Origin: Kibdelosporangium persicum
Lineage (GTDB): Bacteria > Actinomycetota > Actinomycetes > Mycobacteriales > Pseudonocardiaceae
Length of the DNA stretch: 64,000 bases
Direction of reading: 5' to 3'
Assembly: GCF_013280595.1 (NCBI RefSeq)
Contig: NZ_JAAATY010000044.1
Location: 1-64,000 of the forward strand
The notes under the pieces were generated by a model. It made no database searches. It saw only the letters and a list, made by a program, of their open reading frames with translations, and was not told the origin of the DNA. A program made the position numbers and the translations under genes. Positions 2,993 to 33,200 of this stretch are shown piece after piece; the first letter of the stretch is position 1, and each line of letters opens with the position of its first letter.

Positions 2993-3054
2993 TAGAACGT
3001 TCGGTATTGACAGCGGGGTGGTGAACCGGCACGATGGTGGATAGAACGTTCAGT
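2993..3054. promoter_or_regulatory. Paired TAGAACGTTCGGT-type operators bracketing the ohr promoter
   Basis: TAGAACGTTCGGT (2993-3005) runs directly into a TTGACA -35 hexamer (3007-3012). A second near-identical site, TAGAACGTTCAGT (3042-3054), lies about 49 bp downstream, around the expected transcription start. With a 17-bp spacer the -10 would be CACGAT (3030-3035). The same two-site layout recurs at 6236-6300 and 15407-15471, which argues for a shared repressor. The palindromic GAACGTTC core suits a TetR-type dimer. Confidence 0.7.
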
Positions 3055-3112
3055 CTTGCGAAAGGGTGGCCGACGGTGCCCCACGGCTGGACCTGAGAGG
3101 AACCGAGAACTC

Positions 3113-3541
3113 GTGACCGAACCTGTGTATGTCGGAGTCGCCACTTCCACCGGTGACGGCAGGGCTGGCGGACGGGCCAGCACCAACGACGGCCTGCTCG
3201 ACGTCTTTCTGGCGATCCCGAAGGAGATGGGCGGCCCGGGCGGTGCGACCAATCCCGAGCAGCTGTTCGCGGCGGGCTGGGCGTCGTGCTTCCACTCGGC
3301 GCTCAAGGCGATCGCCGCGCAGCGCAAGACCCGTGTCACCGACTCGGCGGTCGTCGCCGAAGTCGAGGTGCACGCGACGCCGGAAGGCGGATTCAGCCTC
3401 AGTGCCGCCCTGCACGTCGAGTTGTCCGGCGTCGACCAGGCGACGGCTGATCAGCTTGTCGAGGCGGCGCACGCGGTCTGCCCTTACTCCAACGCGACCC
3501 GGGGCAACATCCCGGTGGCCATCGACGCGACCGTCGCGTGA
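3113..3541 (+). CDS. ohr: Ohr/OsmC family organic hydroperoxide reductase
   Basis: This is a 142-residue thiol peroxidase that reduces organic hydroperoxides using a Cys pair. The peroxidatic Cys sits in AAGWASCFHSAL (C59) and the resolving Cys in AVCPYSN (C123). The conserved Glu of NPEQLF (E49) and an N-terminal Arg in the GGR segment are also present, as in Ohr proper rather than OsmC. The GTG at 3113 gives the standard family length, with AGAGGA upstream. It is the first gene after the paired operators at 2993-3054. Presence in an aromatic degradation locus suggests protection from peroxides made by the flavin or ring-cleavage oxygenases (inference). Confidence 0.88.
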   Translation: MTEPVYVGVATSTGDGRAGGRASTNDGLLDVFLAIPKEMGGPGGATNPEQLFAAGWASCFHSALKAIAAQRKTRVTDSAVVAEVEVHATPEGGFSLSAALHVELSGVDQATADQLVEAAHAVCPYSNATRGNIPVAIDATVA

Positions 3542-3549
3542 CACCGGTG

Positions 3550-3578
3550 GCCGGGCTGGTGTGGACCATCAGCCCGGC
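3550..3578 (+). terminator. Hairpin terminator after ohr
   Basis: GCCGGGCTG (3550-3558) and CAGCCCGGC (3570-3578) form a 9-bp GC-rich stem with an 11-nt loop, starting 9 bp after the ohr stop. There is no U-tract, as is usual in high-GC actinomycetes. Confidence 0.55.
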
Positions 3579-3640
3579 ACCGTCACGCCCGCGAGCTGCC
3601 CAGGCAGGGAGTGGTGTCCGGGTGGACCTATCATGACCAC

Positions 3641-4267
3641 ATGGTGAGGGGATCTGGCTCCGCGTCGACCGATGCCGGCCCGAGCAGCCGTGACGTGATT
3701 CTGGACGCGGCCCGCGACCTCATCGCCGACAAGGGGTACGACGGCATGGCCGTGTCGGACCTGTGCGCGAAAGCCGGGCTTCCGGCCAGCTCGATCTACT
3801 ACCACTTCGGGAACAAGCTCGGTGTGCTGGCGGCGCTGCTCGACCGCACCTTCGGGGAACTGCACGCCCTGTTCCCGAATCCGTCCTCGTTCGACGACCG
3901 GGCTCCGCTCGACCGTCTCGAAGCGTGGTTCACGGCCGCGTGCAGGTCCCTGGACAAGCGGCCGGACTATCTTCGTCTCCTGCTGGCCATCAGCGTCGGC
4001 CCGCAGAAGGATGCCGAGGCGGTGCGGAAAACCGTGCGCCGCATCCGCGACTACGCCCACGCCTCCTGGGTGGATGCGCTCACGCCCATCTTCGCGCCGG
4101 ATGGCGGCGAGGAGAACGAAGCCCTCGTCAATCAGCTGGCGGTGCTCGGGCGTGCCCTGACGGACGGCCTGTCAGTGACCAGCAGCCTCGACGACATGAC
4201 GTACAGCTCGCAGGTCACCCCGTTTGTTTCGTTGGTACGTGGGCTGGCGGCGCAGCGCGGCGTTTAG
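3641..4267 (+). CDS. TetR family regulator, candidate repressor of the aromatic locus
   Basis: This is a TetR-type repressor of about 208 residues. The N-terminal helix-turn-helix is clear (DLCAKAGLPASSIYYHFGNKL), followed by a helical ligand-binding domain with no family-specific signature that I recognise. ATG at 3641 is chosen; GTG at 3611 in the same frame has GGGAG nearby but at a very short distance. The gene lies between ohr and the C-C hydrolase gene inside the regulon carrying repeated AACGTT-centred palindromes, so it is the nearest candidate for binding them. Its TAG stop is the first three bases of the palindromic repeat element at 4265. Confidence 0.88.
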   Translation: MVRGSGSASTDAGPSSRDVILDAARDLIADKGYDGMAVSDLCAKAGLPASSIYYHFGNKLGVLAALLDRTFGELHALFPNPSSFDDRAPLDRLEAWFTAACRSLDKRPDYLRLLLAISVGPQKDAEAVRKTVRRIRDYAHASWVDALTPIFAPDGGEENEALVNQLAVLGRALTDGLSVTSSLDDMTYSSQVTPFVSLVRGLAAQRGV

Positions 4268-4356
4268 GTCGTGTTTCGAATGTCCCGGTCGATGAGAGTC
4301 GGGATCGGGCCGCATCCGGCCCGGCTATCGCGATCGGGCATTTGAAACACGACCTA
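4265..4356. repeat. Short copy of TAG-ended palindromic repeat (family 1)
   Basis: This 92-bp element begins TAGGTCGTGTTTCGAATG and ends in the near-perfect complement CATTTGAAACACGACCTA. Its first 36 bases are identical to the start of the element at 58422, and its last roughly 48 bases match that element's end with one difference. It lacks the roughly 100-bp interior of the longer copy. The leading TAG is the stop codon of the upstream TetR gene. It is probably a MITE- or REP-like element or a bidirectional terminator; no coding capacity. Confidence 0.85.
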
Positions 4357-4471
4357 GGCTTCGCGACGAGACGAGCGCCGTCCAAGTCCGTCGGTCACGA
4401 GGCTCTTCACGTCGTCCACAGTGGACGCCCTCGGCCCGCTGACGAGTCACCCCGTCGTTGATTCAGGTGTC

Positions 4472-4513
4472 TTGATAAGGCCGCGCCCAGCTGTATAGTG
4501 AACGTTACATACA
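4472..4513 (+). promoter_or_regulatory. Promoter and operator of the hydrolase/dioxygenase genes
   Basis: TTGATA (4472-4477), a 16-bp spacer and TATAGT (4494-4499) make a good sigma-70-type promoter. The -10 overlaps GTGAACGTTACATACA (4498-4513), a 16-base word that recurs exactly at 7001-7016 before the MFS gene. The AACGTT core resembles that of the other operator type in this locus. Confidence 0.7.
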
Positions 4514-4529
4514 GAGCGGAGGTGCTGGG

Positions 4530-5345
4530 ATGGTGAGCACGGTGGATGTCGGGGACGTGCGGCTCGCGTACACCGGTGTCGGCTCGGGCAGCCCGGTCGT
4601 GTGGCTGCACGGCTCGGGCCCGGGAGCCACGGGGATGAGCAACTTCGGCCGGAACCTGCCGGCCTTCGCGGACTTCCGGAACATCGTGGTCGACCTGCCG
4701 GGCTGGGGGAGCACCCCGCGGCCGGCGACGGACGAGCCGCTGATCTTCCACGCCGCCGAACGAGTGTGCCGCGCGATGACGGCTCTCGGGATCGAACGAG
4801 CCCATCTGGTGGGCAACTCCTACGGTGGCGGCGTCGCGATGCGGATCGCCATGCGTCATCCCGAACGTGTCGACCGGCTCGTGCTCATGGCACCGGGCGG
4901 AGTTCTCCCGGCGGACGCGCCGCCCTGGCCGGTCGGCCTCGAACACCTCTTCGCCTACATGGCGGCCGAGGAGCCGGCCCGTGAGGCGATGGCCGAGTTC
5001 GTGCGTCTCATGGTCTTCGACGAGACCCTCGCGACGGACGCCCTCATCGACGAGCGGTACGAGGCGAGTCTCAAGGCCCACCCCGAGTTGCCGATCCCCC
5101 CGAACTTCGGTGACCTGACGCCCGACCTGCGGCTCATCGAAGCCCCCACGCTGCTCGTGTGGGGACGGGAGGACCAGACGGTTCCGCTGACCTGGGCGCC
5201 CAGGATCCTGCACGGCATCCCCAACGCGGAGCTACGCGTGCTGCCCCGATGCCGGCATTGGGTGCAGTACGAGCGCGCGCCCGAGTTCAACCACATCGTC
5301 CGTGAATTTCTGCAGGGCGGGCCAACCGCCGCATCGGAGGGATGA
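4530..5345 (+). CDS. Meta-cleavage product C-C hydrolase (BphD/HsaD-like alpha/beta hydrolase)
   Basis: This is a 271-residue alpha/beta hydrolase expected to hydrolyse the ring-fission product of an extradiol dioxygenase. It carries the family's oxyanion-hole motif HGSGPGA (27-33), nucleophile elbow GNSYGG (S97), acid D215 in GREDQTVPL and base H243 in CRHWVQYE, so the triad is complete. ATG at 4530 follows GGAGGTG with 6-bp spacing. The dioxygenase gene starts 7 bp downstream, making this a tight two-gene ring-cleavage unit. The closest functional analogues by motif are biphenyl (BphD) and steroid (HsaD) hydrolases; the actual substrate is not decided by the sequence. Confidence 0.88.
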   Translation: MVSTVDVGDVRLAYTGVGSGSPVVWLHGSGPGATGMSNFGRNLPAFADFRNIVVDLPGWGSTPRPATDEPLIFHAAERVCRAMTALGIERAHLVGNSYGGGVAMRIAMRHPERVDRLVLMAPGGVLPADAPPWPVGLEHLFAYMAAEEPAREAMAEFVRLMVFDETLATDALIDERYEASLKAHPELPIPPNFGDLTPDLRLIEAPTLLVWGREDQTVPLTWAPRILHGIPNAELRVLPRCRHWVQYERAPEFNHIVREFLQGGPTAASEG

Positions 5346-5351
5346 CACAAC

Positions 5352-6224
5352 GTGGGTATCCGGAAGCTGGGCTACGTCGGCCTCAACGTCACCGACGTCG
5401 ACGCATGGACCGACCTGTTCGAGCGCACGCTGGGAATCGGTGTCACCACCGTGAAGTCCGGCACGGACGAGGTCGCCCTGGCCGAGCTCGACGTGTTCAA
5501 GTACCGTGTGGCGCTTCATCCGTCCACAGTGGACAGTCCAAGGGAGATCGGGTGGATCGTCGACTCGCCGCCCGAGCTCGACCGGCTCACGCGGCGGTTG
5601 ACGGACGCCGGTTTCACCGTCGAAGACGGTTCGGCGGACGAGAAACAGCTGCGCGGCGCCACGCAGCTGCGGTGGTTCACCGATCCCGTCGGCTACCGCG
5701 TGGAATTGGCGATCGGTGAGGCCAAGGTCCGTACCGGCGTGGCCCGCCCGGCCGGTGCGCATCCCGGCGCCACGGGCCTGGGGCACCTCGTCCAGGCCGG
5801 TCCCAAGGTCGCCGAACTGCGCGAGCTCTACGAGTCCGTTCTGGAGTTCAAGCTGACCGACTACCGTGCTCCCGGCCTGTTCTTCTTCCGCTGCAACGCG
5901 ACCCACCACAGCATCGCGCTGGCGCACGCGGAAACGCCCTCCGTTCACCACCTTGAGATCGAACACGGCTCGATCGACGACGTCGGCCGGGCCTACGACC
6001 AGGCCCGGCGCAACGGTGTCCCGATCTCGATCAGCCTTGGCAGGCACATGAACGACAAGGCGATCTCGTTCTACGTCCAGAATCCCAGCGGGTTCCACCT
6101 GGAGATCGGCTGTGGTGGCATCGAGGTCGGCGAGGACTGGGTCCCGCACGACTTCGGCGTCTCGGACGTGTGGGGGCACCACCACGCCGACGCCAATCCC
6201 TTCGCCTTCCCGAAATCCGCCTGA
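5352..6224 (+). CDS. Type I extradiol ring-cleavage dioxygenase (BphC/HsaC-like)
   Basis: This is a 290-residue two-domain vicinal-oxygen-chelate dioxygenase that cleaves a catechol next to its diol using Fe(II) and O2. Metal ligands H145 (GLGHLVQ), H200 (VHHLEIE) and E251 (FHLEIG) are in place. So are the second-sphere residues H186 (THHSIAL), H232 (LGRHMND) and Y241 (FYVQNPSGF), matching the BphC set, so it should be active. The GTG at 5352 has GGAGGG about 9 bp upstream. It follows the C-C hydrolase by 6 bp, so substrate and product steps are co-expressed. A two-ring or bulky catechol is suggested by family, not proven. Confidence 0.9.
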   Translation: MGIRKLGYVGLNVTDVDAWTDLFERTLGIGVTTVKSGTDEVALAELDVFKYRVALHPSTVDSPREIGWIVDSPPELDRLTRRLTDAGFTVEDGSADEKQLRGATQLRWFTDPVGYRVELAIGEAKVRTGVARPAGAHPGATGLGHLVQAGPKVAELRELYESVLEFKLTDYRAPGLFFFRCNATHHSIALAHAETPSVHHLEIEHGSIDDVGRAYDQARRNGVPISISLGRHMNDKAISFYVQNPSGFHLEIGCGGIEVGEDWVPHDFGVSDVWGHHHADANPFAFPKSA

Positions 6225-6235
6225 CAGGGGCGAGA

Positions 6236-6300
6236 TAGAACGATCGGTCTTGACGAGACGGCCGGGCGTCAGTAAGGTCAGTCGTGTACCGAACGTTCTA
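6236..6300. promoter_or_regulatory. Promoter bracketed by two TAGAACGTTCGGT-type operators
   Basis: TAGAACGATCGGT (6236-6248) abuts TTGACG (6250-6255). A 17-bp spacer leads to TAAGGT (6273-6278), a plausible -10. The second operator is inverted, ACCGAACGTTCTA (6288-6300), near the expected start of transcription. This is one of three promoters with the same bracket. Confidence 0.7.
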
Positions 6301-6389
6301 TACACGGGAGACCGTACCGGTTCCGTCCCGTGGCCGCGGCGGGAAATGTCCCCCGGCCGGATCGTTCACACCAATCCAAGGGAGAACTC

Positions 6390-6956
6390 ATGAGCACCCC
6401 GGAAAGTGCTGTCGCGGCGTCCTTGCGCCGGTTGTACTTCGTCCGTTTCGCGTTCGCGGTCGTGTGGGCCGCCCTGGTGGTGGCGACCGCGTCGAGCTTC
6501 GGGCCGCTCACCGTGGCGTTGCTCGTGCTCTACCCGTTGTTCGACGTGGCCGCCGCGATCGTCGACGCTCGCTCGTCGAAGGCGACGGGGTCGGCGCTGG
6601 GTCTGTACGTGAACATCGGGGTCAGCCTGCTCGCCGCGGTGGGCATCGGGATCGCCGCCTCGGCCGGAATCCCCGGCGTTCTGCGCGTGTGGGGGCTGTG
6701 GGCCATCGTCTCCGGCGTCGTCCAGCTCGTCGTCGGTGTCAGCCGCCGCAAGCTGGGCGGGCAGTGGGCCATGATCCTCAGCGGCGGCATCTCCACGCTC
6801 GCCGGCACGTCGTTCATCCTGCAGGCCGGGCAGCCGGGCGCCTCGCTGACCAATGTCGCCGGCTACGCGGTGCTCGGCGGGATCTTCTTCCTCGTCTCGG
6901 CGCTTCGCCTCGGCCGCACGGCGAAGGTGGCCAACGTGAGCGCCGGAACCTTCTGA
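6390..6956 (+). CDS. DUF308/HdeD-like small membrane protein
   Basis: This is a 188-residue integral membrane protein with about six hydrophobic segments, of the DUF308 type also seen in HdeD-like proteins. ATG at 6390 is preceded by AAGGGAG at good spacing. Function is unknown; HdeD-type proteins have been linked to acid stress in enterobacteria, but that cannot be transferred here. It has its own operator-bracketed promoter (6236-6300) within the aromatic locus and precedes the aromatic-acid MFS gene, so a role in tolerance to the substrate is possible (inference). Confidence 0.75.
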   Translation: MSTPESAVAASLRRLYFVRFAFAVVWAALVVATASSFGPLTVALLVLYPLFDVAAAIVDARSSKATGSALGLYVNIGVSLLAAVGIGIAASAGIPGVLRVWGLWAIVSGVVQLVVGVSRRKLGGQWAMILSGGISTLAGTSFILQAGQPGASLTNVAGYAVLGGIFFLVSALRLGRTAKVANVSAGTF

Positions 6957-6996
6957 GACGAGCCACGACGCGGTAGCCAACCCGTCCGGCAAGTCG

Positions 6997-7016
6997 TAGA
7001 GTGAACGTTACATACA
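6997..7016 (+). promoter_or_regulatory. -10 region and second copy of the GTGAACGTTACATACA operator
   Basis: TAGAGT (6997-7002) is a likely -10 that overlaps GTGAACGTTACATACA (7001-7016), identical over 16 bases to the site before the hydrolase gene at 4498-4513. No clear -35 is visible. It controls the MFS/hydrolase/hydroxylase/HyuAB run that follows. Confidence 0.65.
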
Positions 7017-7113
7017 AAGCATGGAACGCCCGCGCCGGACCCGCGTCCCAGAGCCGGTTCAGGGGCTTTCCGAGGGGGCCTTACCCGACCGTCGCAACGA
7101 AGCGAGGTTTCCC

Positions 7114-8457
7114 GTGAACGTCCTTGAACAGGTCAAGCAGTCGCCGATGAGCCGCGCCCAGGTCAGGGCGGTCGCACTTTGTCTCGTGATGAACCTGGTG
7201 GACGGGTTCGACCTCCTGGTCACCTCCTTCGTCGGGCCGGCGATCACCCGTGAGTGGGGCCTGTCCCCGTCGGCGGTGGGAGTGCTGCTCAGCGGCGGCC
7301 TGGCCGGGATGGCCTTCGGGGCACTCTTCCTGGCTCCGCTCGCCGACCGCGTCGGGCGCCGCCGGCTCACCCTCGGCTGTCTGGCGTTGGCGTCGCTGGG
7401 AATGCTCGCGGCATCCGTCGCACAGGACTTCGGGCAGCTCGTCGCGTGCCGGGTGGTCACGGGCGCGGCGGTGGGCGCGATGGCGGCGAGCCTGCCGGTC
7501 CTCACCTCCGAATACGCGAACAACCGGCGCAGGGGACTGGCCGTCGCGCTGATCACGACGGGGTACGGCCTGGGCTCGGTGATCGCCGGTATCGCGACGA
7601 GCCTGCTCGTGGGCCCGCTCGGCTGGCGATCGGTTTTTGTGTTCGGAGGTGCCGTGACCGCCGTCCTCTTCGTGATCGGACTGCGGTTCCTGCCCGAGTC
7701 GATGGACTATCTCGTGGCACGCCGTCCCCACGACGCGCTGGCCCGGTTCAACCGCATCCTCGTCTCGATCGGCCGCGCGCCGGTCGACGAGCTGCCCGAG
7801 ACGGCGTCGGCGTCGCGCAAGGTGGCGCTCGAATCGCTGTTCCGCCGAGGCAACGCTGTCCGGACGGTACTGGTCTGGGTGGCGTTCACCGCGGCGCAGA
7901 TGATGTTCTACTTCGCGAGCTCGTGGACGCCGAGCCTGCTGCTGCAGGCCGGGATGTCCAACCAGCAAGGCATCAGCGGCGGCGTGCTGTTCAGTCTCGG
8001 CGGTGTCACCGGCGCGGTGTTGCTGGGGATTCTGGTGTCCCGTGTGGAGCCACGCCGGCTGACCGCGGCCTATTTCGGCATCGCGGCACTCGTGCTCGTG
8101 CTGTTCTCGCTGTCGCTCGGGACCCTGGCCACCGCGTTGGTCGTGGCGGTGCTCGTCGGTCTGTTCCTCAACGGCTCGGTGTCCGGGATCAACGTCATCG
8201 TCCCGTCCATCTACCCGGCCGAGGCCCGCGCGACGGCGCTCGGCATGGCTGTCGCCGTGAGCCGGCTCGGTGCCGTGCTGGCGCCCCTGCTCGCCGGCTT
8301 CCTGCTGGAGGCCGGCTGGGCGCCGGGATCGATGTTCCGGATCTTCGCGATACCCGGCCTGATCGGCGCGCTGGCGACGATTCTCCTCGTCCGGTACGCG
8401 CGTGCGCCCCGGGTCGCGGGGATTGCGTCCGAGCCCAGGGCCGTCGAGGGTGTTTGA
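7114..8457 (+). CDS. MFS transporter, aromatic acid:H+ symporter type
   Basis: This is a 447-residue 12-helix major facilitator of the aromatic-acid/H+ symporter (PcaK-like) type. TM1 carries the DGFD motif (LVDGFDLLVTSF) required in that family, and loop 2-3 has ADRVGRRR. GTG at 7114 with GAGG at 6-bp spacing is preferred over an upstream in-frame ATG at 7021, which would add 31 hydrophilic residues and start immediately after the operator. It opens the operon that continues with the second hydrolase, flavin hydroxylase and HyuAB. It probably imports the aromatic substrate. Confidence 0.88.
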   Translation: MNVLEQVKQSPMSRAQVRAVALCLVMNLVDGFDLLVTSFVGPAITREWGLSPSAVGVLLSGGLAGMAFGALFLAPLADRVGRRRLTLGCLALASLGMLAASVAQDFGQLVACRVVTGAAVGAMAASLPVLTSEYANNRRRGLAVALITTGYGLGSVIAGIATSLLVGPLGWRSVFVFGGAVTAVLFVIGLRFLPESMDYLVARRPHDALARFNRILVSIGRAPVDELPETASASRKVALESLFRRGNAVRTVLVWVAFTAAQMMFYFASSWTPSLLLQAGMSNQQGISGGVLFSLGGVTGAVLLGILVSRVEPRRLTAAYFGIAALVLVLFSLSLGTLATALVVAVLVGLFLNGSVSGINVIVPSIYPAEARATALGMAVAVSRLGAVLAPLLAGFLLEAGWAPGSMFRIFAIPGLIGALATILLVRYARAPRVAGIASEPRAVEGV

Positions 8458-8504
8458 CTCCAAGGGCCCGGGACTCGCGCGCGATCCACACCAGGAGGCA
8501 GCAG

Positions 8505-9296
8505 GTGCAGGCCACATCGGACGGTGCCGCCAAGACACGGGCGGCGATCGGGCGGAACCCCGTTCTCGTGCTGCTGCACGGCGGCGGGCCGGGCGTCGAC
8601 GCCGAGAGCAACTGGGCGACGGTACGCTCCCGGTTCTCGGCCGAGTTCCGCTGCCTTGCTCCCGACCTTCTCGGCTTCGGCACGCAGGTCGTCGAGCGCG
8701 GGCCGCGCGGGCCGCACGCGTGGGCACAGGCCCGTGCACGGCAGATCCTGGACCTGCTCGATCACCATGGCCTGGACCGTGTGCACCTCGTCGGCAACTC
8801 GGCCGCGGGCGGCGCCGCGGCGCTGGCTCTCATGGCCGCGGCGCCAGACCGGATCGACCGCGCGGTCGTCATGGGCGGGGCGGGCACTGGACCGCTGCCG
8901 CCCGCTGTTCCCTTCTACGACGAGCCGACGAAGCAGTCCATGCGCACCACCCTTGGCCGTCTGGTCGCGGACGAGAGTTCCCACCGCGAACTCCTCGACG
9001 ACCTCGCTGACCTCCGGCTGGCACAGGCCCTGCGTCCCGGCGCCGAGGCCGCCTTCCGGTCGATGTTCGCCGACGTGCCCGACGGGCCGCCTCCGGTCGA
9101 TCCCACCAGGATCACCTGCCCGGTCCTCGTCCTGCACGGGGAACGCGACCGGGTCTCGCCGGTGGAGGTCTCCCGGCGTCTCGCCGGCACTCTGCCCCAT
9201 GGCCGTCTCGAGGTCGTGGCGGGAGCCGGGCACTGGATCCACGTCGACCGGCCGGACGAGTTCTGCAGCCTGGTAGGGGAGTTCCTGACCGCATGA
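8505..9296 (+). CDS. Alpha/beta hydrolase, second C-C hydrolase-like enzyme
   Basis: This is a 263-residue hydrolase with HGGGPGVDAESNW (25-37), nucleophile S99 in GNSAAG, acid D215 in GERDRVS and base H243 in GAGHWIHVD. The HGGGPG motif places it near the meta-cleavage product hydrolases, so the locus has two such enzymes with divergent sequences. GTG at 8505 is preceded by AGGAGG at 6-bp spacing. Its end overlaps the hydroxylase start by 4 bp (ATGA), implying translational coupling. It may act on a different ring-fission intermediate or an ester (inference). Confidence 0.85.
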   Translation: MQATSDGAAKTRAAIGRNPVLVLLHGGGPGVDAESNWATVRSRFSAEFRCLAPDLLGFGTQVVERGPRGPHAWAQARARQILDLLDHHGLDRVHLVGNSAAGGAAALALMAAAPDRIDRAVVMGGAGTGPLPPAVPFYDEPTKQSMRTTLGRLVADESSHRELLDDLADLRLAQALRPGAEAAFRSMFADVPDGPPPVDPTRITCPVLVLHGERDRVSPVEVSRRLAGTLPHGRLEVVAGAGHWIHVDRPDEFCSLVGEFLTA

Positions 9297-10915
9297 CCGA
9301 GCACACCAGCAGCCAAGCCGGCGTCCTGATCGTCGGCGCCGGTCCCACCGGACTGACCCTCGCCATCGACCTCGCCCAGCGCGGCGTGGCGTGCCACGTC
9401 GTGGAGGCGACCGGGAAGCGGGCCGTCAACCCCCGCTGCAACACCACCTCCGCCCGATCGATGGAGATCTTCCGCAGGCTCGGGATCGCCGGTGACATCC
9501 GGCGGGCCGGGCTGCCCGAGGACTACCCCACGTCGATCCAGTACCGGACGACCCTGCGCGGCGAGGAGATCTTCCGTATCGACCTGCCGTCGTCCGGGGA
9601 CGTGCTGGCCGGAGCCGGCCGGGACGACTGGCCCACGCCGGAGCCGCAGCACCGGATCTCGCAGCTGTACCTGGAACCCATTCTGGAGCGGCACGCGAAC
9701 GCACTGCCCGGCCTGAGCATCGAGCGTGGTACCCGGCTGGTCGCGTTGCGGCAGCACGAAGATCACGTCGAGGCGGTCGTGGAGACCGAAGGCACCCGGC
9801 GCACCCTGCACTGTGCCTACGTGATCGGCTGCGACGGCGCCCACAGCGCCGTCCGCCGCCAGCTGGGCATCCGCTACCAGGGCGTCGACGCGATCCAGCG
9901 GTTCGTGTCGACCTTCGTCCGCTCGCCCGAGCTGGGGCGGCTGGCCGCCCGGGACCGGGCCTGGACGTACTGGACCTACGGCCGCCGGCTCGCCTCGTTG
10001 ATCGCCATCGACGGGGATTCGTTGTGGCTCAACCACGTCGCCTTCGCGCCCGACCACGACACCGAACGTGAGGACCCCGCGCGGCTGCTCCGGGAAGCGG
10101 TGGGTGGTCCCGTCGGCCACGAGGTGCTCGGCGTGGTGCGCTGGACCGGACGCCAGCTGGTCGCCGAGCGCTACCGGGACGGCCGGGTGTTCCTGGCCGG
10201 GGACGCCGCCCACATCTGGATTCCCGTCGGGGGATTCGGGATGAACGCCGGTATCCAGGACGCGGCGACGCTGGGCTGGATGCTCGCGGCGGTCCACCAC
10301 GGATGGGCCCCACCGGACCTGCTGGCGGCGTACGAAACGGAGCGCAAGCCGGTCGGCGAGCAGTTCGCCAGTGCGGTGGGCACGGCGGCACGCCAGTCCC
10401 TCGCGGACGTCTCACCGGACATCCACCTGCCCGGCCCGGAAGGCGCACGGGCCCGCGCCGAGCTCGCCGACCGGTTGGCCGTCACCGAGCCACACCGGTA
10501 CACACCCGACGGCTTCAGCTTCGGCTATCACTACGCGGCCTCGCCCCTCGTGGTCGGAGGTGAGGAGCAAGCGGCCATCACCATGGGCCGGTATCAGCAG
10601 CGAGCGCAGGCGGGTTTCCGGCTGCCACATGCGTGGCTCGACGACGGCAGGTCGGTGCTCGACGTGCTCGGGCCCGGCTTCACCTTGCTGCGCACCGACT
10701 TGAGCGTCGACGTGGCGCCCTGGACCGACGCGGCCCGTGAGCTCGGAATTCCGCTGACCGTGGCCGACCTGCCTGGGCGGTGGCCCGGCCGCTATCCCAC
10801 CGGGCTGCTGCTTGTGCGCCCGGACCAGCACGTCGCCTGGATGGGCGGCGCGGACGCTCGTCCCGGCGAGCTGCTGCACACAGTCACCGGCCGTGTCACC
10901 GCCCAGCAGCGGTAG
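9293..10915 (+). CDS. Class A FAD-dependent aromatic monooxygenase
   Basis: This is a 540-residue flavoprotein hydroxylase of the phenol/3-hydroxyphenylpropionate hydroxylase type, which inserts one O2-derived oxygen into an activated ring using NAD(P)H. The FAD motifs are complete: GAGPTG near residue 15, CDGAHSAVR near 182 and GDAAHIWIPVGGFGMN near 303. A C-terminal thioredoxin-like extension, common in MhpA/PheA relatives, is suggested by the length. It overlaps the preceding hydrolase by 4 bp. It probably makes the catechol that the extradiol dioxygenase at 5352 cleaves (inference from context). Confidence 0.88.
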   Translation: MTEHTSSQAGVLIVGAGPTGLTLAIDLAQRGVACHVVEATGKRAVNPRCNTTSARSMEIFRRLGIAGDIRRAGLPEDYPTSIQYRTTLRGEEIFRIDLPSSGDVLAGAGRDDWPTPEPQHRISQLYLEPILERHANALPGLSIERGTRLVALRQHEDHVEAVVETEGTRRTLHCAYVIGCDGAHSAVRRQLGIRYQGVDAIQRFVSTFVRSPELGRLAARDRAWTYWTYGRRLASLIAIDGDSLWLNHVAFAPDHDTEREDPARLLREAVGGPVGHEVLGVVRWTGRQLVAERYRDGRVFLAGDAAHIWIPVGGFGMNAGIQDAATLGWMLAAVHHGWAPPDLLAAYETERKPVGEQFASAVGTAARQSLADVSPDIHLPGPEGARARAELADRLAVTEPHRYTPDGFSFGYHYAASPLVVGGEEQAAITMGRYQQRAQAGFRLPHAWLDDGRSVLDVLGPGFTLLRTDLSVDVAPWTDAARELGIPLTVADLPGRWPGRYPTGLLLVRPDQHVAWMGGADARPGELLHTVTGRVTAQQR

Positions 10916-10935
10916 AGATCACCAGGAGAACGCAC

Positions 10936-13038
10936 ATGCCATACGCACTGGGCATCGATGTGGGCGGCACGTTCACCGACGCGGTCGCCTCCGACGGGGC
11001 CGGCCGGATCGTGTCGGCCAAGACGCCGACGACCCCGCCGAACCGCGAGGCCGGCGTCATGCGCGCGATCGAGGACCTCGCCGCGGAGCTCGGCGTCGGC
11101 GTCGGCGAACTGCTCTCGCGGACCGACTACATCGCCCACGGCACGACCGCGTCGATCAACGCCCTCGTCCAGGGGACGGTGGCGGATGTCGGGCTGATCG
11201 CCACCAAGGGCCACCGGGACTCGATCTACATCATGAACGCCGAGGGCCGCACGCTCGGCCGGTCGGCCCACGAGATCCAGGACACGTTGCGGCAGCGCAA
11301 ACCCGCGCCGCTGATCCCGAAGTACCGGGCGCTCGAGGTCACCGAGCGGATCGACCACGCCGGGAAGATCCTGGTCCCCCTGGACGAGGACGAGGTCCGT
11401 CGAGTGGCACAGTCCCTTGTGGACCAGGGGGTCGAGGCGATCGCCGTCTGTCTGTTGTGGTCGTTCAAGAACGGCGTCCACGAGCGGCGCGTCCGCGAGC
11501 TGATCCACGAGATCGCCCCGGACCTGTACGTCACGCTCTCCAGCGAGGTCAGCCCGCGCATCCGCGAGTTCGCGCGGACCTCGACGACGATCATGAACGC
11601 TCAGGTGGGGCCCCGGTTGCGCACCTACCTGCTGCCGTTGCAGGAGCAGCTGGAGCGGAGCGGGCTCAAGGGACCTCTGCTCGTCATGCAGAGCGAAGGC
11701 GGCACCATCACGGCCGACCGGGCTCCGGAGCACGCCATCACCACTGTGGGGTCTGTGCTGTCCGGCGGCGTCATCGGCGGCATGCGCCTGGCGGAGCAGC
11801 TCGGGCACCGCAACGTCATCACGACCGATGTCGGCGGCACGACGTTCCTGGCGGGGCTGATCGTCGACGGGGAGCCGGTGATGGCGCCGGGCTCGATCGT
11901 CAACCAGTTCCCGATCAACGCGGCGACCATTCGCGTGCACACCATCGGTTCCGGCGGCGGCGCCCTCGCCTCGGTGGACGCGGGCGGCAACCTGCGACTC
12001 GGCCCGCAGAGCGCCGAGGCCGTTCCCGGCCCCGCCTGCTACGGCAACGGCGGCACGCGGCCCACGAACACCGACGCCAACCTGGTGCTGGGCATCCTGA
12101 GCGAACGCGGGCTGCTCGGCGGCCGCAAGCCGCTGCGGATGGACCTCGCGCGGCAGGCGATTCGCGAGCACGTGGCCGAGCCGCTCGGCCTCACGGTCGA
12201 GCAAGCCGCCATCGCCATCCACGAGGTGCAGAACGCGCAGGCGGGAGACCTGCTGCGGCGGGCCGTCGTGCAGGCCGGCTACGACCCCCGCGACTTCGTC
12301 GCCTACGCCTTCGGCGGCGCCGGACCCGCGCACTGCGCCGGCTACTGCCACGACCTGGGCGTGAGTGAGGTCGTCGTGCCGCTCGGTCCGGTCGCTTCCG
12401 CCTTCTCTGCCTACGGGCTCGCGGCCTCGGACGTCGTGCTGAGCGCGGAGCTCTCCGATCCGTCCTCCTTCCCGGTCGACCCCACGGTGCTCGAATCCCA
12501 CTACGCGCGGCTGGAAGCCGACCTGCGGCGCGCGCTCGACCGGCAGAAGGTGAAGTTCCACGACGTGACGGTGCAGCGCGAGGTCGACCTGCGGTACTCG
12601 ATGCAGGTCACCGAGCTCGCGACGGCCGTTCCGGACACCGAGTTCACCGAGCACACCGGCGAGGAGATCCTTCAGCGCTTCGAGGAACAGTACGAGCGCA
12701 TCAACGGCAGCGGCGCCGGTTACCGCGAGGCAGGCGTGCAGGCGATCACCTACCGCGTGCGAGCCAAGGCCAGTCTCGGCTTCCCGGTCGCGCTGCCTGA
12801 GGTCGCACCGGCCGAGAGCCCTGACCCCGCGGAGGCGCTGCTCGGGGAACGCTCCGTCTGCCTCGACTCGCGGATCGGCTTCGTGCCGACCCCCGTCTAC
12901 GACTACGCCCGGCTCCGCGCGGGCCACGAACTCGTCGGACCGGCGATCGTCGACGTGCCGACCACGGTGGTCGTGGTCCCCGCCGGGGTCACCGGCCGTG
13001 TCGACCGTCTCGGCAATCTCGTGCTGCGCTACACGTGA
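10936..13038 (+). CDS. Hydantoinase A / acetone carboxylase beta-like ATPase subunit
   Basis: This is a 700-residue HyuA-family protein with the ASKHA-type nucleotide motif GIDVGGTFTD at the N-terminus and a second phosphate motif TTDVGGTTF near residue 295. Members activate substrates with ATP in hydantoinase, 5-oxoprolinase, acetone carboxylase and acetophenone carboxylase complexes. ATG at 10936 has AGGAG 7 bp upstream. It overlaps or nearly abuts hyuB downstream. Because the partner carries an acetone-carboxylase-gamma-like tail, a ketone carboxylase is more likely here than a hydantoinase (inference). Confidence 0.85.
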   Translation: MPYALGIDVGGTFTDAVASDGAGRIVSAKTPTTPPNREAGVMRAIEDLAAELGVGVGELLSRTDYIAHGTTASINALVQGTVADVGLIATKGHRDSIYIMNAEGRTLGRSAHEIQDTLRQRKPAPLIPKYRALEVTERIDHAGKILVPLDEDEVRRVAQSLVDQGVEAIAVCLLWSFKNGVHERRVRELIHEIAPDLYVTLSSEVSPRIREFARTSTTIMNAQVGPRLRTYLLPLQEQLERSGLKGPLLVMQSEGGTITADRAPEHAITTVGSVLSGGVIGGMRLAEQLGHRNVITTDVGGTTFLAGLIVDGEPVMAPGSIVNQFPINAATIRVHTIGSGGGALASVDAGGNLRLGPQSAEAVPGPACYGNGGTRPTNTDANLVLGILSERGLLGGRKPLRMDLARQAIREHVAEPLGLTVEQAAIAIHEVQNAQAGDLLRRAVVQAGYDPRDFVAYAFGGAGPAHCAGYCHDLGVSEVVVPLGPVASAFSAYGLAASDVVLSAELSDPSSFPVDPTVLESHYARLEADLRRALDRQKVKFHDVTVQREVDLRYSMQVTELATAVPDTEFTEHTGEEILQRFEEQYERINGSGAGYREAGVQAITYRVRAKASLGFPVALPEVAPAESPDPAEALLGERSVCLDSRIGFVPTPVYDYARLRAGHELVGPAIVDVPTTVVVVPAGVTGRVDRLGNLVLRYT

Positions 13039-13049
13039 GGACAGCTGCC

Positions 13050-15374
13050 ATGACTTCCAGGATTCCCGGGGCGGACGAGTTCACCAGCCGTCCCCTGCCG
13101 CGCGAGGAGCTGCTGCGGCAGATCTCGCCCGCCCTGCCGCTGCACCAGGTCGACGACGAGCGGCCCGGCCAGGTCGACGCCCTGACCTACGAGGTCGTCC
13201 GGCACCGGCTCTGGGCGATCACCCAGGAGATGGGGGAGACGCTGCGGCGGATGTCGGGTTCGCACGTCGTCACCGAGTCCAACGACTTCAACTTCTCCAT
13301 CTGCGACGAGCTCGGCGAGCAGGTCCAGGTCGGCACCTACAACGTCGGCCTGATCGGGTCCATGGACCTGGCCATCGTCTGGACGTTGCGCAACCGCGCC
13401 GACAACCCGGGCATCGCCGAGGGCGACATGTTCCTGTGCAACGACCCGTGGATCGGCGGCGGGCTGCACCAGAACGACGCCGCGATCCTGGCGCCGATCT
13501 TCCACGAGGGCAGGCTGTTCGGCTGGACGACGGCCATCGCCCACCAGGTCGACCTGGGCGGTCCCCGGCCGGGGTCCTTCAGCCCGTCGGCCCACGACGT
13601 GTTCGGCGAGGCCCTGCCCACGCCGCCGATCAAGGTCGTCCGGGGCGGGGTGTTGCAGCGTGACGTCGCCGACGCCTGGGTCCGGCGATCGAGGCTCCCG
13701 CACCTGGTCGGTCTCGACCTGCGCGCCAAGATCGCCGCGAACAAGAACGCCGCCGAGCAGATCCTCCGGCTCATCGCGAAGTACGGCGCCGGCACCGTCA
13801 AGCTCGTGATGCGCCGGATGATGGACGACGCCGAGCGCAGGCTGCGGGCGAAACTCGAGACACTGCCCGACGGGACCTGGTCCGCGGTGGGCTACCAGGA
13901 ACAGTCGCGAACCGGCGACCGTGGCCTGCACGCGATCAAGGTCGCGATGACCAAGCAGGCCGACCGGCTCGTCTTCGACTTCCGCGGCACGGCCGGGCAG
14001 ACCGGCATCATCAACTGCCCCTATCCGGGGTTGCGGGCCGGGATCGTGTTCACTGTGCTGCCGTTGCTGGCCGGGGACATCCCGTGGGCGGCGGGCGGCC
14101 TGATGCGCTGCTTCGAGATCATCACCGACGAGGACACCATCACCAACGCGTCCTTTCCCGCCGCGGTGGGAAAGGGACCCTTCGGGCCGGCGTGGGGAGC
14201 GGGCAACCTGGTCGCCGAGGTGATCGCCAAGATGCTGGACGCCGAACCCGATCACCGCGGGGACGTGCAGTCCATCTGCAACGGCACCACCGACCTCTGT
14301 GTGGTGTCCGGTGTGGACGTTCGCGGCGGAGGCGGCAAGGGGTTCGTGTCGCCCGTCTTCGACGTCATGGCAGGCGGTTACGGGGCGCAGGTGTACCACG
14401 ACGGCGTCGACACCGGCGGCCGCCTCATCATCCCCTCCGCGCGGGCGCCTGACGTCGAGATGACCGAGTACCTCTACCCGCTGGTCGCCTTGTGGCGCCG
14501 TGAGCAGACCGACTCCGGCGGGCCGGGGCGGCAGCGGGGCGGGATGAGCGGCTCGGTCTGCTACGTGCAGCACCCGGACCAGCAGGGGACGATGTCGCTG
14601 GTCGTGTCGGGAACCGGGAAGGTCGCGAACCAGAACGTCGGCCTGGCCGGTGGGTACCCGGGCAACTCCCAGCTCGATCTGGTGGTGCGCGGGATCGGCG
14701 TGCCCCAGCTCGCCGGCGCGACCGCCATTCCCACGGACCTGGACGAACTCGGCGGCGAGATCGAGGTGCTGCCGTGCGAGGGCGAGTCGGATCTCGGCCC
14801 GGGTGACGCGCTTTACCTGCACTGGCAGGCAGGCGGCGGGTATGGCGACCCGCTGCTGCGCCCGGCCGCGAGCGTGCGCGAAGACGTGCTGCAGGCCCGG
14901 GTTTCGGTGGAAGCCGCGCGGGAGGTCTATGGCGTGGTCCTGGGGCACGACGGCGAGGTCGACCTGGCCGCGACCGACGAGAAGCGCGAGCGGCTCCGGC
15001 TCCGGCGGGCCGCCGATGCCGGTCTGCCCGAGCCACGACCCACCTCGATCGGCGCGCCGGACCTGACCGGTGCCCGTCGGCTCGACGACAACCTTGCCGT
15101 CCTGGACTCGCCGGGAACTGGCACGGTGGTGTGTGTCCATTGCCGCACGCGGATCGGGCCGCTGGCCGGCGGCGCGTTCGTCGCGGCGCTGGCCCGCCGT
15201 GACTCCGCCCCGACCGAGGCAGGGCCGCACATCTGGCACGACCCGTCGGTCTACGTCGACGACTCTGTGGTGTTCCGCCAGCTGTTCTGTCCCGGCTGCC
15301 TGACCGCGGTGCACTCCCGGGTCGTCCCAGTCGGCCATCCGCTCCCGGACGACGACTACCGGACCTGGGCGTAA
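13050..15374 (+). CDS. Hydantoinase B / acetone carboxylase alpha-like subunit fused to a gamma-like zinc domain
   Basis: This is a 774-residue HyuB-family protein. The main body (about 1-660) has the NDPWIGGGLHQND and YGDPLLRP segments typical of the family. The last roughly 90 residues hold two CxxC pairs (CVHC and CPGC) in a segment resembling the separate gamma subunit of acetone carboxylases, here fused in frame. ATG at 13050 has TGAGGAC at good spacing; GTG at 13035 overlapping the hyuA stop is the alternative. With HyuA it forms the catalytic complex, possibly ATP-dependent carboxylation of a ketone released from the ring substrate. Confidence 0.82.
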   Translation: MTSRIPGADEFTSRPLPREELLRQISPALPLHQVDDERPGQVDALTYEVVRHRLWAITQEMGETLRRMSGSHVVTESNDFNFSICDELGEQVQVGTYNVGLIGSMDLAIVWTLRNRADNPGIAEGDMFLCNDPWIGGGLHQNDAAILAPIFHEGRLFGWTTAIAHQVDLGGPRPGSFSPSAHDVFGEALPTPPIKVVRGGVLQRDVADAWVRRSRLPHLVGLDLRAKIAANKNAAEQILRLIAKYGAGTVKLVMRRMMDDAERRLRAKLETLPDGTWSAVGYQEQSRTGDRGLHAIKVAMTKQADRLVFDFRGTAGQTGIINCPYPGLRAGIVFTVLPLLAGDIPWAAGGLMRCFEIITDEDTITNASFPAAVGKGPFGPAWGAGNLVAEVIAKMLDAEPDHRGDVQSICNGTTDLCVVSGVDVRGGGGKGFVSPVFDVMAGGYGAQVYHDGVDTGGRLIIPSARAPDVEMTEYLYPLVALWRREQTDSGGPGRQRGGMSGSVCYVQHPDQQGTMSLVVSGTGKVANQNVGLAGGYPGNSQLDLVVRGIGVPQLAGATAIPTDLDELGGEIEVLPCEGESDLGPGDALYLHWQAGGGYGDPLLRPAASVREDVLQARVSVEAAREVYGVVLGHDGEVDLAATDEKRERLRLRRAADAGLPEPRPTSIGAPDLTGARRLDDNLAVLDSPGTGTVVCVHCRTRIGPLAGGAFVAALARRDSAPTEAGPHIWHDPSVYVDDSVVFRQLFCPGCLTAVHSRVVPVGHPLPDDDYRTWA

Positions 15375-15406
15375 GGCGGAGTCAGGCACGCCGGAACCCG
15401 AGAAGG

Positions 15407-15471
15407 TAGAACGTTCGGTCTTGACAAGGCGGGAACCGGTCGCCATGCTGAGGCAAGGTAGAACGTTCGGT
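15407..15471. promoter_or_regulatory. Third promoter bracketed by paired TAGAACGTTCGGT operators
   Basis: TAGAACGTTCGGT (15407-15419) is followed by TTGACA (15421-15426), with a possible -10 CATGCT (15444-15449) after 17 bp. A second identical operator follows at 15459-15471. Operator-to-operator distance is 52 bp, as at 6236-6300. It drives the oxidoreductase at 15503. Confidence 0.75.
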
Positions 15472-15502
15472 ATCGCAGTTGTGTCGCCTGAAGGGGTACG
15501 GC

Positions 15503-16927
15503 ATGGAAACCAGTACGTACGACGTCGTCGTCATCGGCGCGGGTCCGGTGGGGGAGAACGTCGCCGACCGCATAGTGCAGGGCGGTCTGAGCGCCGCCAT
15601 CGTCGAGCGCGAACTGGTCGGCGGTGAGTGCTCGTACTGGGCCTGCATGCCGACCAAGGCATTGCTGCGCAGTGCAGCGGCGCTCCGGACAGCCCGGCAG
15701 TTGCCCGGCGCCCGCGAAGCGGTGACGGGCGGCCTGGACGCGGCGGCCGTGCTGCGCCGCCGCGACGCCTTCGCCTCGAACTGGAAGGACGACGGCCAGG
15801 CGTCCTGGCTGGAATCGGTGGGTGTTCCGCTGTACCGCGGACACGGCCGGATCGTGGCCGCCCGGGTCGTCGAGGTGACCGGCCTGGACGGCACCACGAC
15901 GACGCTGACCGCGCGGCACGCGGTCGTCGTCGCGACCGGGAGTGGCGCGCTGGTCCCCGATATCGAAGGCCTTCGCGAGGCGTCCCCGTGGACCAGCCGG
16001 GAAGCCGTGTCGGCGAGCGAGGTTCCCCGCAGGCTCGCCATCATCGGCGGCGGGGTGGTGGCCTCGGAAATGGCGACCGCGTTCACCGACCTGGGCTCGT
16101 CGGTGACCATGCTGGCCCGTGACGGCGTGCTGCACCTCGCGGAGCCGTTCGTCGGCGAGCGAGTCGTGGAGTCGTTGCGGGACAAGGGTGTCTCGGTGCG
16201 GATCGGGGCCGAGGCCGGATCTGTGAAACGTGACGACGACGGAACGGTGTCCATCACGCTCACCGATGGTGAGCAGATCGACGCCGACGAACTCCTCGTC
16301 GCCATCGGCCGGGTGCCCAACACCCAGGACATCGGCCTGGACAGCGTCGGCCTGAAGCCGGGCGACTGGCTCACGGTCGACGACACGATGCGGGTCGTCG
16401 GGCAGGACGGCGGGTGGCTCTATGCCGCCGGGGACGTCAACCGGCGCGTTCTGCTGACGCACCAAGGGAAGTACCAGGCTCGTGCCGTGGGGGACGTCAT
16501 CGTGGCGCGTGCGAAGGGCGAGGCGGTCGAGGACGGCCGGTGGGGGCGGCACGTGGCGACGGCAGACGAGCGTGCGGTGCCGCAGGTGGTGTTCACCGAT
16601 CCGGAGATCGCGTCGGTGGGGCTGACCGCGGCCGCGGCCGAGGCCGCCGGGATGCGGATCCGGGTGGTCGACTACGACCTGGCGGCCGTGGCGGGCTCCG
16701 CCCTGCACAGCGACGGATACCGGGGACAGGCCCGGATGGTCGTCCACGAGGACCGGAAGGTGATCGCCGGGGTCACGCTCGTCGGCCCAGACGTGGCGGA
16801 ACTGCTGCACGCCGCGACGATCGCCGTCGTCGGAGAGGTGCCGCTCGACCGGCTGTGGCACGCGGTTCCGGCGTTCCCCACCGTCAGCGAGGTGTGGCTC
16901 CGGTTGCTGGAAGCCTATGGCCGCTGA
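15503..16927 (+). CDS. Pyridine nucleotide-disulfide oxidoreductase (lipoamide dehydrogenase/mercuric reductase-like)
   Basis: This is a 474-residue FAD/NAD(P) disulfide reductase. It has the FAD motif GAGPVGENVA (12-21), a redox-active C43-x4-C48 pair in ECSYWACMPTK, a second Rossmann motif GGGVVASE and a C-terminal HAVPAFPTVSE segment matching the catalytic His-Glu dyad region. ATG at 15503 has AAGGGG at 7-bp spacing. It has its own operator-bracketed promoter, so it belongs to the regulon. A thiol or quinone reducing role supporting the oxygenases is possible; the true substrate is unknown. Confidence 0.85.
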   Translation: METSTYDVVVIGAGPVGENVADRIVQGGLSAAIVERELVGGECSYWACMPTKALLRSAAALRTARQLPGAREAVTGGLDAAAVLRRRDAFASNWKDDGQASWLESVGVPLYRGHGRIVAARVVEVTGLDGTTTTLTARHAVVVATGSGALVPDIEGLREASPWTSREAVSASEVPRRLAIIGGGVVASEMATAFTDLGSSVTMLARDGVLHLAEPFVGERVVESLRDKGVSVRIGAEAGSVKRDDDGTVSITLTDGEQIDADELLVAIGRVPNTQDIGLDSVGLKPGDWLTVDDTMRVVGQDGGWLYAAGDVNRRVLLTHQGKYQARAVGDVIVARAKGEAVEDGRWGRHVATADERAVPQVVFTDPEIASVGLTAAAAEAAGMRIRVVDYDLAAVAGSALHSDGYRGQARMVVHEDRKVIAGVTLVGPDVAELLHAATIAVVGEVPLDRLWHAVPAFPTVSEVWLRLLEAYGR

Positions 16928-17038
16928 ACAAACGCATGAGGTCCCGCCGCCACTCTTCTCCCGTCATGCCGTCGGCCGGGGGCCGCCCGTGTGGTACGAC
17001 TTCGGCGTGGGTGGCCCGGCGGAAGGGGCGAGAGGACG

Positions 17039-17629
17039 ATGTCGGATTCGGCGGGCGTCCGGCGCGTGGTGACCCGGGATCAGGTGGTGCGCGGTGGATG
17101 CCGGTTCTTCCTGCGGCACGGCATGGTGGACATGGACGGGCTGGCACTCACTCTCGCCATCAGCCGGGCGACGCTGTACCGCGTGGTGCACAGTCGCGAC
17201 GGTCTGCTGGGGGATGTGCTGTGGCTGCTCGCCGAGCGGACGTTGTCACGGGCGAGGAAGCAGCGCCGCCGGTCGGGGGTCGACGGTGTCCTGGAAGTGA
17301 CCTGGCGGTTCGTGGAGCAGTTGCGGATGGCGGCGGCGTTCCGGACCTTCCTGCGCAGCGAACCGGAAACGGCCGCCAGGGTGCTGTTCAACGCCTCGGC
17401 CGGTGTGCATCCGCGGGCTGTGTCGGCGCAGCGGGAGATCCTGGTGGAGGCCGGTGGCGCGGCCGAGTCGTGGTCGGCGGCCACCCTCGACCAAGTCGCC
17501 TTCCTCTACGTCCGCATCGTCGAGTCGGCGCTCTACGCCGAGTTGTTCGGAGGTGTCGCGATCGAGCCGGAACTGGCCGAAAGGGCCGCCAGGGCAGTGC
17601 TGACGCACGGTGCGACAGCCGTCTCATGA
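17039..17629 (+). CDS. TetR-superfamily regulator, QsdR-like
   Basis: This is a 196-residue regulator whose N-terminus reads TLAISRATLYRVVHSRDGLL, a helix-turn-helix of the QsdR-type TetR group. Its C-terminal half fits the same group (LAERTL... YVRIVESALYAELF). ATG at 17039 follows GAGAGG. It lies 111 bp after the disulfide oxidoreductase with no terminator between and may read through with it. It is a second candidate for binding one of the two operator types of the locus. Confidence 0.75.
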   Translation: MSDSAGVRRVVTRDQVVRGGCRFFLRHGMVDMDGLALTLAISRATLYRVVHSRDGLLGDVLWLLAERTLSRARKQRRRSGVDGVLEVTWRFVEQLRMAAAFRTFLRSEPETAARVLFNASAGVHPRAVSAQREILVEAGGAAESWSAATLDQVAFLYVRIVESALYAELFGGVAIEPELAERAARAVLTHGATAVS

Positions 17630-21298: not shown

Positions 21299-21952
21299 TC
21301 AACGCTCATTGTTTTTAGAACGTTCGACGACCACGCAGCACAACCCCGGCCGCGGGTCCATGCGGGCCCGTAGCCCTTCAGTGCCCTCGATGAGTCCTTC
21401 CAGCAGCGCCAGGTTCATGCCGCACACCAGCGCCGGATGCCGCTCGGAGAGGACGTGGAAGGGACAGTTGACCAGGCGGAGGACATCCCCCTCCGTGCGC
21501 GGCTCGTAGCCGCGAGCGGCCAGCAGGGCCTTGGCGCCGGCGAGATCCCCGGCCGGCCCGGCGGCGGCGCGAGCGGCCCGTCCCTCCCGCCGGGCGGCGG
21601 CCTGCAACTCGGTGTCCAGCCGGGCGGCCTCCGCCACCTCGGCCAGCAAGTCGGCGGCGGTGCGGTAGTCGCGCGCCGGGACGGAGAACTGGCGCTCGGC
21701 GCGGGCCCGGCGGTAAAGCTTGGCCGGTCGCCCCGCCCCCGGGCCGGACCGGCCGCTGAGCCGCCTGCTCCCGGTCTCCAGCAGCCCGGCGTCCACGAGC
21801 TTGTCGAGGTGGAACGCGGCCAGCGTGCGCTGGATCCCGGCGCCCTCGGCCGCCTCGTTCCGGCTCACCTCGTGGTCCTGCGCGGCCACGTACTCGTACA
21901 GCCGCCGCCGGACGGGGTCCTGCAGAACGGCGATCGCCTCGATGTCCTCCAC
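21299..21952 (-). CDS. Winged-helix (ArsR/MarR-like) transcriptional regulator
   Basis: This is a 217-residue regulator. Residues 1-65 form a winged helix (DPVRRRLYEYVAAQDHEVSR... LAAFHLDKLVDAGLLE). An Arg/Gly-rich wing (SGRSGPGAGRPAKLYRRA) follows, then a C-terminal effector-like domain with two conserved Cys (VNCPFHVLSE and LVCGMNLA), as in the Rrf2/ArsR-like group with possible metal or redox sensing. The start is GTG at 21952. An imperfect inverted repeat lies upstream (TTCTAA near 21959 and TTAGAA near 21983), a possible autoregulatory site. Confidence 0.78.
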   Translation of the reverse strand: MEDIEAIAVLQDPVRRRLYEYVAAQDHEVSRNEAAEGAGIQRTLAAFHLDKLVDAGLLETGSRRLSGRSGPGAGRPAKLYRRARAERQFSVPARDYRTAADLLAEVAEAARLDTELQAAARREGRAARAAAGPAGDLAGAKALLAARGYEPRTEGDVLRLVNCPFHVLSERHPALVCGMNLALLEGLIEGTEGLRARMDPRPGLCCVVVERSKNNER

Positions 21953-33111: not shown

Positions 33112-33130
33112 GGGGACCAGTCTAACGAAC

Positions 33131-33184: not shown

Positions 33185-33200
33185 TTCGAGGAAGCCTCTG

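Follow-up and report, generated by a model that had tools for sequence, protein, structure and literature searches.

Within a 64,000-nt stretch of Kibdelosporangium persicum DNA (the window), three promoters are each accompanied by two copies of a short palindrome, which we call M1. They precede the genes for an Ohr peroxiredoxin, a membrane protein and a pyridine nucleotide-disulfide oxidoreductase (PNDR), and two TetR-family genes, TetR-A and TetR-B, lie close by. Which regulator do these pairs serve? A first-pass annotation of the DNA had assigned them to one local TetR-type protein. The comparison of genomes reported here supports a single TetR-type owner and a conserved two-operator promoter, but not a local owner: very probably, the six M1 sites are operators of F1, a TetR encoded on another contig, which would act in trans on ohr, the membrane-protein and reductase genes and its own gene, while the neighbouring catabolic genes would be controlled separately through a second palindrome, M2.

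In the window, the pattern TAGAACGWTCRGT has exactly six matches (2993+, 3042+, 6236+, 6288-, 15407+ and 15459+), against a mean of 0 in 100 dinucleotide shuffles, and these form three pairs as annotated. GAACGWTC-N34..50-GAACGWTC was likewise found at three places, all of them the three pairs, and at none in the shuffles; against this, a looser search allowing up to 3 mismatches gave an ordinary result (18 matches versus 12.7 expected, 8 of 100 shuffles reaching as many). The annotated spacing of 49-52 bp was nearly right: the measured centre-to-centre distances are 49, 53 and 52 bp, with the 6288 site on the minus strand. The 14-mer AGAACGWTCGKTCT describes the palindrome better; its exact form occurs at three places in the organism's own genome (10.35 Mb), two in the window and one on contig C33. 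The shorter TAGAACGWTC has 11 genome-wide matches and 0 with the reversed pattern as control, so that random occurrence was not borne out; they comprise the six paired sites, one at window position 21316 and four outside the window, one of the four lying directly upstream of the F1 gene on C33. Since the variant GAACGATC is present in 16 of 74 distinct pairs, the GATC core at 6236 can be regarded as a permitted variant. The site at 21316, a seventh copy (TAGAACGTTC), has no partner, falls within the 3' end of what looks like a gene (frame 21299-21952 on the minus strand) and is probably due to chance. A pair-like match on contig C10 adjoins a LacI-like reading frame.

The promoter layout had been read correctly. 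All three window pairs have 12 bp from the start of the first core to the -35 hexamer (TTGACA, TTGACG and TTGACA, respectively), then a 17-bp spacer and a -10-like hexamer, with the second site over the presumed transcription start; the boxes were assigned by a simple score that favours spacers of 17-18 bp. The distance of 12 bp was found in 29 of 29 pairs whose selection left it free (those of the window and of loci L036-L066, for which TTG[AC][CA] was required 8-20 bp after the core). The pattern used for strict pairs fixes 12 bp to TTGAC, so that the value of 12 in 68/68 pairs is partly a matter of selection. These 68 were taken from the 74 distinct pairs upon exclusion of five of the L102/L108/L111/L118/L124 type, which go with other TetRs, and of a 57-bp reading of the L112 pair. 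Their -35/-10 spacers measure 16-18 bp, the distance from the -10 box to the second core averages 16.7 bp (standard deviation 1.4) and 53 of them have a total spacing of 51-53 bp (range 47-55); among the 29 pairs outside the TTGAC selection, 19 are spaced by 51-53 bp.

F1 is encoded outside the window, on contig C33 at about 32,847-33,431 (L166:1474-2082). It is the one clear ortholog in the own genome, with 70% identity and 275 bits (runner-up: 34%, 97 bits), and contains the N-terminal TetR helix-turn-helix PF00440 (53.2 bits, cut-off 24). A perfect M1 starts 57 bp before its SEAR motif and sits 6 bp upstream of a -10-like TATAGT. This placement is conserved. In the order search, the 30 best-scoring F1 loci include 28 whose F1 gene has M1 with no more than 1 mismatch in the 160 bp preceding the SEAR motif; the match is exact in 26, and the site mostly lies at 55-63 bp. 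By comparison, such a site turned up in 22 of 6000 random windows, and 200 shuffled consensuses each matched at most 1 of the 30 genes. In 14 kb around F1 on C33, no match was found to the window cluster proteins queried (the HyuA query being out of frame).

The order search covered 397 genomes and found strict pairs in 39, at 49 places (control 0). F1 scores above 300 bits in 35 of these 39 genomes versus 15 of the 358 without strict pairs (hand counts), this cut-off and that of 290 bits used below having been chosen after the score gap was seen. When 34 loci were fetched around pairs (L131-L164), 25 of them contained F1 itself: in 19 it and the membrane-protein or reductase gene are divergent on either side of the pair (manual count from maps), in 4 it stands beside those genes and in 2 elsewhere. 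One or other of these two genes lies at the pair in 24 of 30 loci around order pairs.

The loci of TetR-A allow the two candidate owners to be separated. Thirty-one such loci, from Amycolatopsis, Streptomyces, Nonomuraea, Kribbella, Pseudonocardia and others, held 115 GAACGWTC-type cores versus 0 reversed, with a peak of pair spacing at 52 bp. Thirty of them were used for the genome test, as L057 and L036 come from the same organism. TetR-A is thus present in all 30 genomes, and pairs and F1 (at least 290 bits) coincide in 27 and are both missing in 3 (Fisher p 2.5e-4); put otherwise, pairs occur in 27/27 genomes with a high-scoring F1 and 0/3 without one, which is where the notion of a local owner fails. 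The pair is strict in 26 of the 30, the 27th (G550, locus L066) having a relaxed -35. The three genomes devoid of pair and high-scoring F1 (loci L046, L048 and L065) retain M2. This second palindrome, TGTAKAGTGARCGYTACATACA, overlooked in the first-pass annotation, occurs in the window without mismatch at 4492 and with 1 mismatch at 6995, in both cases over a -10-like box, before the hydrolase/dioxygenase genes and the gene of a major facilitator superfamily (MFS) transporter, respectively. It was found in 24 of 31 TetR-A loci, the same loci from which, with the window, it had been defined (7 lack it), versus 0 of 29 M1 loci without TetR-A; the latter are loci L131-L164 less five that contain TetR-A or parts of the cluster. 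M1 tracks F1 and M2 tracks TetR-A. By this association, M2 most likely belongs to TetR-A.

Local ownership of M1 has nevertheless to be weighed. TetR-A is encoded directly downstream of ohr on the same strand, M1 lies within 1.5 kb in 5 of the 6 TetR-A loci of 200 family genomes (own included), and GAACGTT is common to M1 and M2 in the window. However, in the genomes of L046, L048 and L065 the strict pair and high-scoring F1 are gone while TetR-A is kept, and only 4 of the 397 order genomes possess TetR-A versus the 39 with strict pairs; binding of the M1 pairs by TetR-A is therefore very unlikely. That TetR-B should bind them, as its position behind PNDR on the same strand might invite one to think, is extremely unlikely: in 13 other ortholog loci, neither M1 nor PNDR was found within 1.5 kb of it, a distance beyond which sites would escape. 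Both proteins were rejected as M1 owners on co-occurrence across genomes. At about 1530-1560 of locus L046 (Pseudonocardia), a different palindrome, TAGACGAACTAGTTCGTCTA, precedes the membrane-protein gene, which suggests a switch of regulator there.

Several points weigh against the assignment of M1 to F1. Four of the 39 strict-pair genomes lack an F1 above 300 bits, and another TetR stands beside the pair in all four: in G422 it is an F1-like TetR (249 bits), and in G321, G341 and G359 a different TetR adjoins a related AACGAACGTTCGTT pair. F1 occurs without a strict pair in 15 genomes; seven of these were examined, and a near-consensus partner 49-51 bp off is present in G377, G429, G503 and G469, and absent in G394, G460 and G053. 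Two of the 30 F1 genes have no good upstream site (G362; G049, best 2 mismatches). Among the three genomes without high-scoring F1, G531 has none at E <= 1e-40, and G533 and G549 retain distant F1-like TetRs (best 239 and 210 bits, respectively). The relaxed-pair criterion that admitted G550 was used on loci of 20 kb rather than genome-wide, and the Fisher tests ignore kinship, so that their values overstate independence. In the own genome, sequence is the only link between F1 and the window. Finally, thiol or electrophile sensing by F1 is proposed from conserved cysteines and by analogy with the TetR repressors AltR and NemR.

A two-operator promoter layout recurs with another regulator: L108, L111, L118 and L124 (around 1501) share a different TetR, with identities of 73-81% between the four, encoded beside a AACGAACGTTCGTT pair 55-56 bp apart.

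Sites, geometry, co-occurrence and the conserved place before F1 are what the comparison shows; from these we infer binding, repression, an inducer and the action of TetR-A on M2, as follows. One F1 dimer would bind upstream of the -35 box and touch it, and a second would bind over the transcription start; together, they would silence three promoters, those before ohr, the membrane-protein gene and PNDR. In addition, F1 would repress its own gene through the site just upstream of the -10-like box. An inducer, probably thiol-reactive or oxidising, would act on C107 and/or C168, whereupon F1 would be released and detoxification switched on. The adjoining catabolic genes would be under separate control via M2, most likely by TetR-A.

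Other modes of action of F1 can be envisaged on the same pairs. The two dimers might cooperate, by contact or by the looping that had been proposed from the window, rather than act as independent roadblocks, and the prevailing spacing of 51-53 bp is indeed near five helical turns. However, 52 bp is short for a DNA loop, the total spacing varies between pairs, and the spacer and the distance from -10 to second operator did not compensate each other (r = 0.00 over the 68 pairs, a weak test as the spacer varies by 2 bp and the score used to choose the -10 box favours 17-18 bp). Since the two variable distances do not compensate, two promoter-tied dimers fit at least as well as a loop; looping found no support, and cooperation in general is unlikely. 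The fixed 12 bp before the -35 box would also suit an activator or dual regulator working through the -35-proximal operator, but the second operator, over the presumed start, and F1's own site, next to the -10-like box, are in repressing positions, which makes either of these roles highly improbable.

The two cysteines just mentioned, C107 (in FRGCA) and C168, are invariant in 25 aligned proteins, namely 24 of the 45 F1 proteins in the loci and the own-genome F1. AltR of Pantoea ananatis is a TetR repressor in which Cys100 is a key residue; it represses stress-tolerance genes as well as its own gene, and in this autoregulation and control of stress-type genes it resembles what is predicted for F1 (PMC13178969). 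C107 is likened to Cys100 by residue number, not by alignment. Its operator, CAATCTAC-N6-GTAGATTG, is unlike the M1 consensus, and for this reason F1 was not filed as AltR; moreover, AltR responds to thiosulfinates, and the passages on it describe no paired-operator promoter (PMC13178969). NemR of E. coli, as presented there, is likewise an autoregulated TetR with a conserved redox-active cysteine and controls a reductase gene (PMC13178969), but its targets differ from those predicted for F1. CssR of Corynebacterium glutamicum is an autoregulated actinobacterial TetR stress repressor, as F1 is predicted to be; it differs by a 25-bp operator, TAA(G)TGN3GN5CN3CA(G)TTA, and by its target, a transporter operon, and its cysteines are reported to have no role (PMC8176726). 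The known regulator of ohr, and thus of organic hydroperoxide resistance, is OhrR, a MarR-family protein (PMC6034001), whereas here ohr stands behind TetR-type operators.

The closest solved relative of F1 is PDB 3g7r, a 'putative transcriptional regulator' (E 2.1e-76, residues 2-182 of 193), which from this similarity probably belongs to the F1 family; the entry carries neither function nor operator. We take it to be Streptomyces coelicolor SCO4454. On the own-genome F1, the domain TetR_C_13 gives a partial match (29.0 bits, cut-off 27); it is presumably linked to NemR relatives. Full-text searches of PMC retrieved no functional study of F1, no paper on SCO4454 or on 3G7R with TetR, and nothing joining DUF308, TetR and disulfide oxidoreductase; a narrow search for TetR-family proteins bound cooperatively at two operators likewise retrieved no paper, and operator fragments gave only titles that look off-topic among the matches listed.

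The pair layout is kept across Amycolatopsis, Streptomyces, Nonomuraea and Kribbella, and one genome has as many as 13 pairs. Strict M1 pairs number 7-13, and F1-family genes (E <= 1e-40) 2-4, in each of six genomes (G532, G521, G544, G543, G529 and G542); thus, the regulon, or a related set, would be much larger there than in the organism of the window. We put forward as possible, rather than probable, that F1 represents an uncharacterised class of actinobacterial thiol-stress repressor with a two-dimer 'promoter clamp', and that the aromatic cluster is connected to it in trans, an arrangement in which toxic intermediates would induce protection while the local TetR runs the pathway. A widespread TetR family, of which a solved structure is a probable member, would thereby gain a precise operator, a characteristic promoter layout and a regulon that takes in Ohr, the membrane protein and the disulfide reductase, and this assignment makes the inducer of F1 directly testable. 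A motif may belong to a regulator other than its neighbour, and the two motifs of one cluster could be allotted to two TetRs by means of genomes that lack one of them.

Table. Coordinates of the M1 and M2 sites, presumed promoters and associated genes in the window.
Feature	Position	Strand	Remarks
M1 operator 1a	2994..3007	+	AGAACGTTCGGTAT; touches -35 of ohr promoter from upstream
Presumed ohr promoter	3007..3035	+	-35 TTGACA 3007-3012, 17 bp, -10 CACGAT 3030-3035
M1 operator 1b	3043..3056	+	AGAACGTTCAGTCT; over presumed transcription start
Ohr/OsmC-family peroxiredoxin gene	3113..3541	+	TIGR03561; start inferred
TetR-A, local TetR-family regulator	3641..4267	+	predicted to act on M2, not M1
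M2 site	4492..4513	+	TGTATAGTGAACGTTACATACA; overlaps -10-like TATAGT before ring-cleavage hydrolase/dioxygenase genes
M1 operator 2a	6237..6250	+	AGAACGATCGGTCT; exact consensus
Presumed membrane-protein promoter	6250..6278	+	-35 TTGACG 6250-6255, 17 bp, -10 TAAGGT 6273-6278
M1 operator 2b	6286..6299	-	AGAACGTTCGGTAC on minus strand
Membrane-protein gene (earlier label DUF308)	6390..6956	+	no Pfam match; start inferred
M2 site	6995..7016	+	CGTAGAGTGAACGTTACATACA; directly before MFS transporter gene
M1 operator 3a	15408..15421	+	AGAACGTTCGGTCT; exact consensus
Presumed PNDR promoter	15421..15449	+	-35 TTGACA 15421-15426, 17 bp, -10 CATGCT 15444-15449
M1 operator 3b	15460..15473	+	AGAACGTTCGGTAT
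PNDR, flavin adenine dinucleotide (FAD)-dependent pyridine nucleotide-disulfide oxidoreductase	15503..16927	+	mercuric reductase / lipoamide dehydrogenase class; CX4C motif by reading
TetR-B (TetR_C_36 C-terminal domain)	16991..17629	+	follows PNDR, same strand

The genes behind the M1 promoters of the window differ in character from the catabolic genes around them, namely a peroxiredoxin (Ohr: subfamily model TIGR03561, 163.9 bits versus a cut-off of 88.85), a membrane protein and a flavin disulfide reductase. All three had been placed correctly behind their pairs; the DUF308 label given to the membrane protein did not hold, as it matched no Pfam family at E <= 0.1. Downstream of 68 oriented pairs (another set than that used for the geometry, some of them read on the reverse strand), the gene encodes the membrane protein in 31 cases, Ohr in 14, PNDR in 3, a member of a hydrolase family in 3 and a protein of about 100 residues without Pfam family in 4; there are 6 singles, and no gene was found in 7. 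Some of the downstream genes are hydrolases and one is an FAD oxidase. The genes behind the pairs look like a detoxification set. Many relatives have the membrane-protein and reductase genes adjacent to each other after a single M1 pair; in the window they are 8.5 kb apart, with a pair each.

The cluster of the window comprises a BphD/HsaD-like hydrolase, an extradiol dioxygenase-like protein, the MFS transporter, a second hydrolase and an FAD monooxygenase, an apparent aromatic-degradation set, with most NCBIfam scores under the curated cut-offs. Two large proteins of the cluster are presumably HyuA/HyuB-like. Between TetR-A and the hydrolase gene, an element of 92 bp overall (4265-4356, read by eye), with inverted ends TAGGTCGTGTTTCGAATG ... 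CATTTGAAACACGACCTA, extends from the TetR-A stop codon and looks like a small insertion-sequence derivative.

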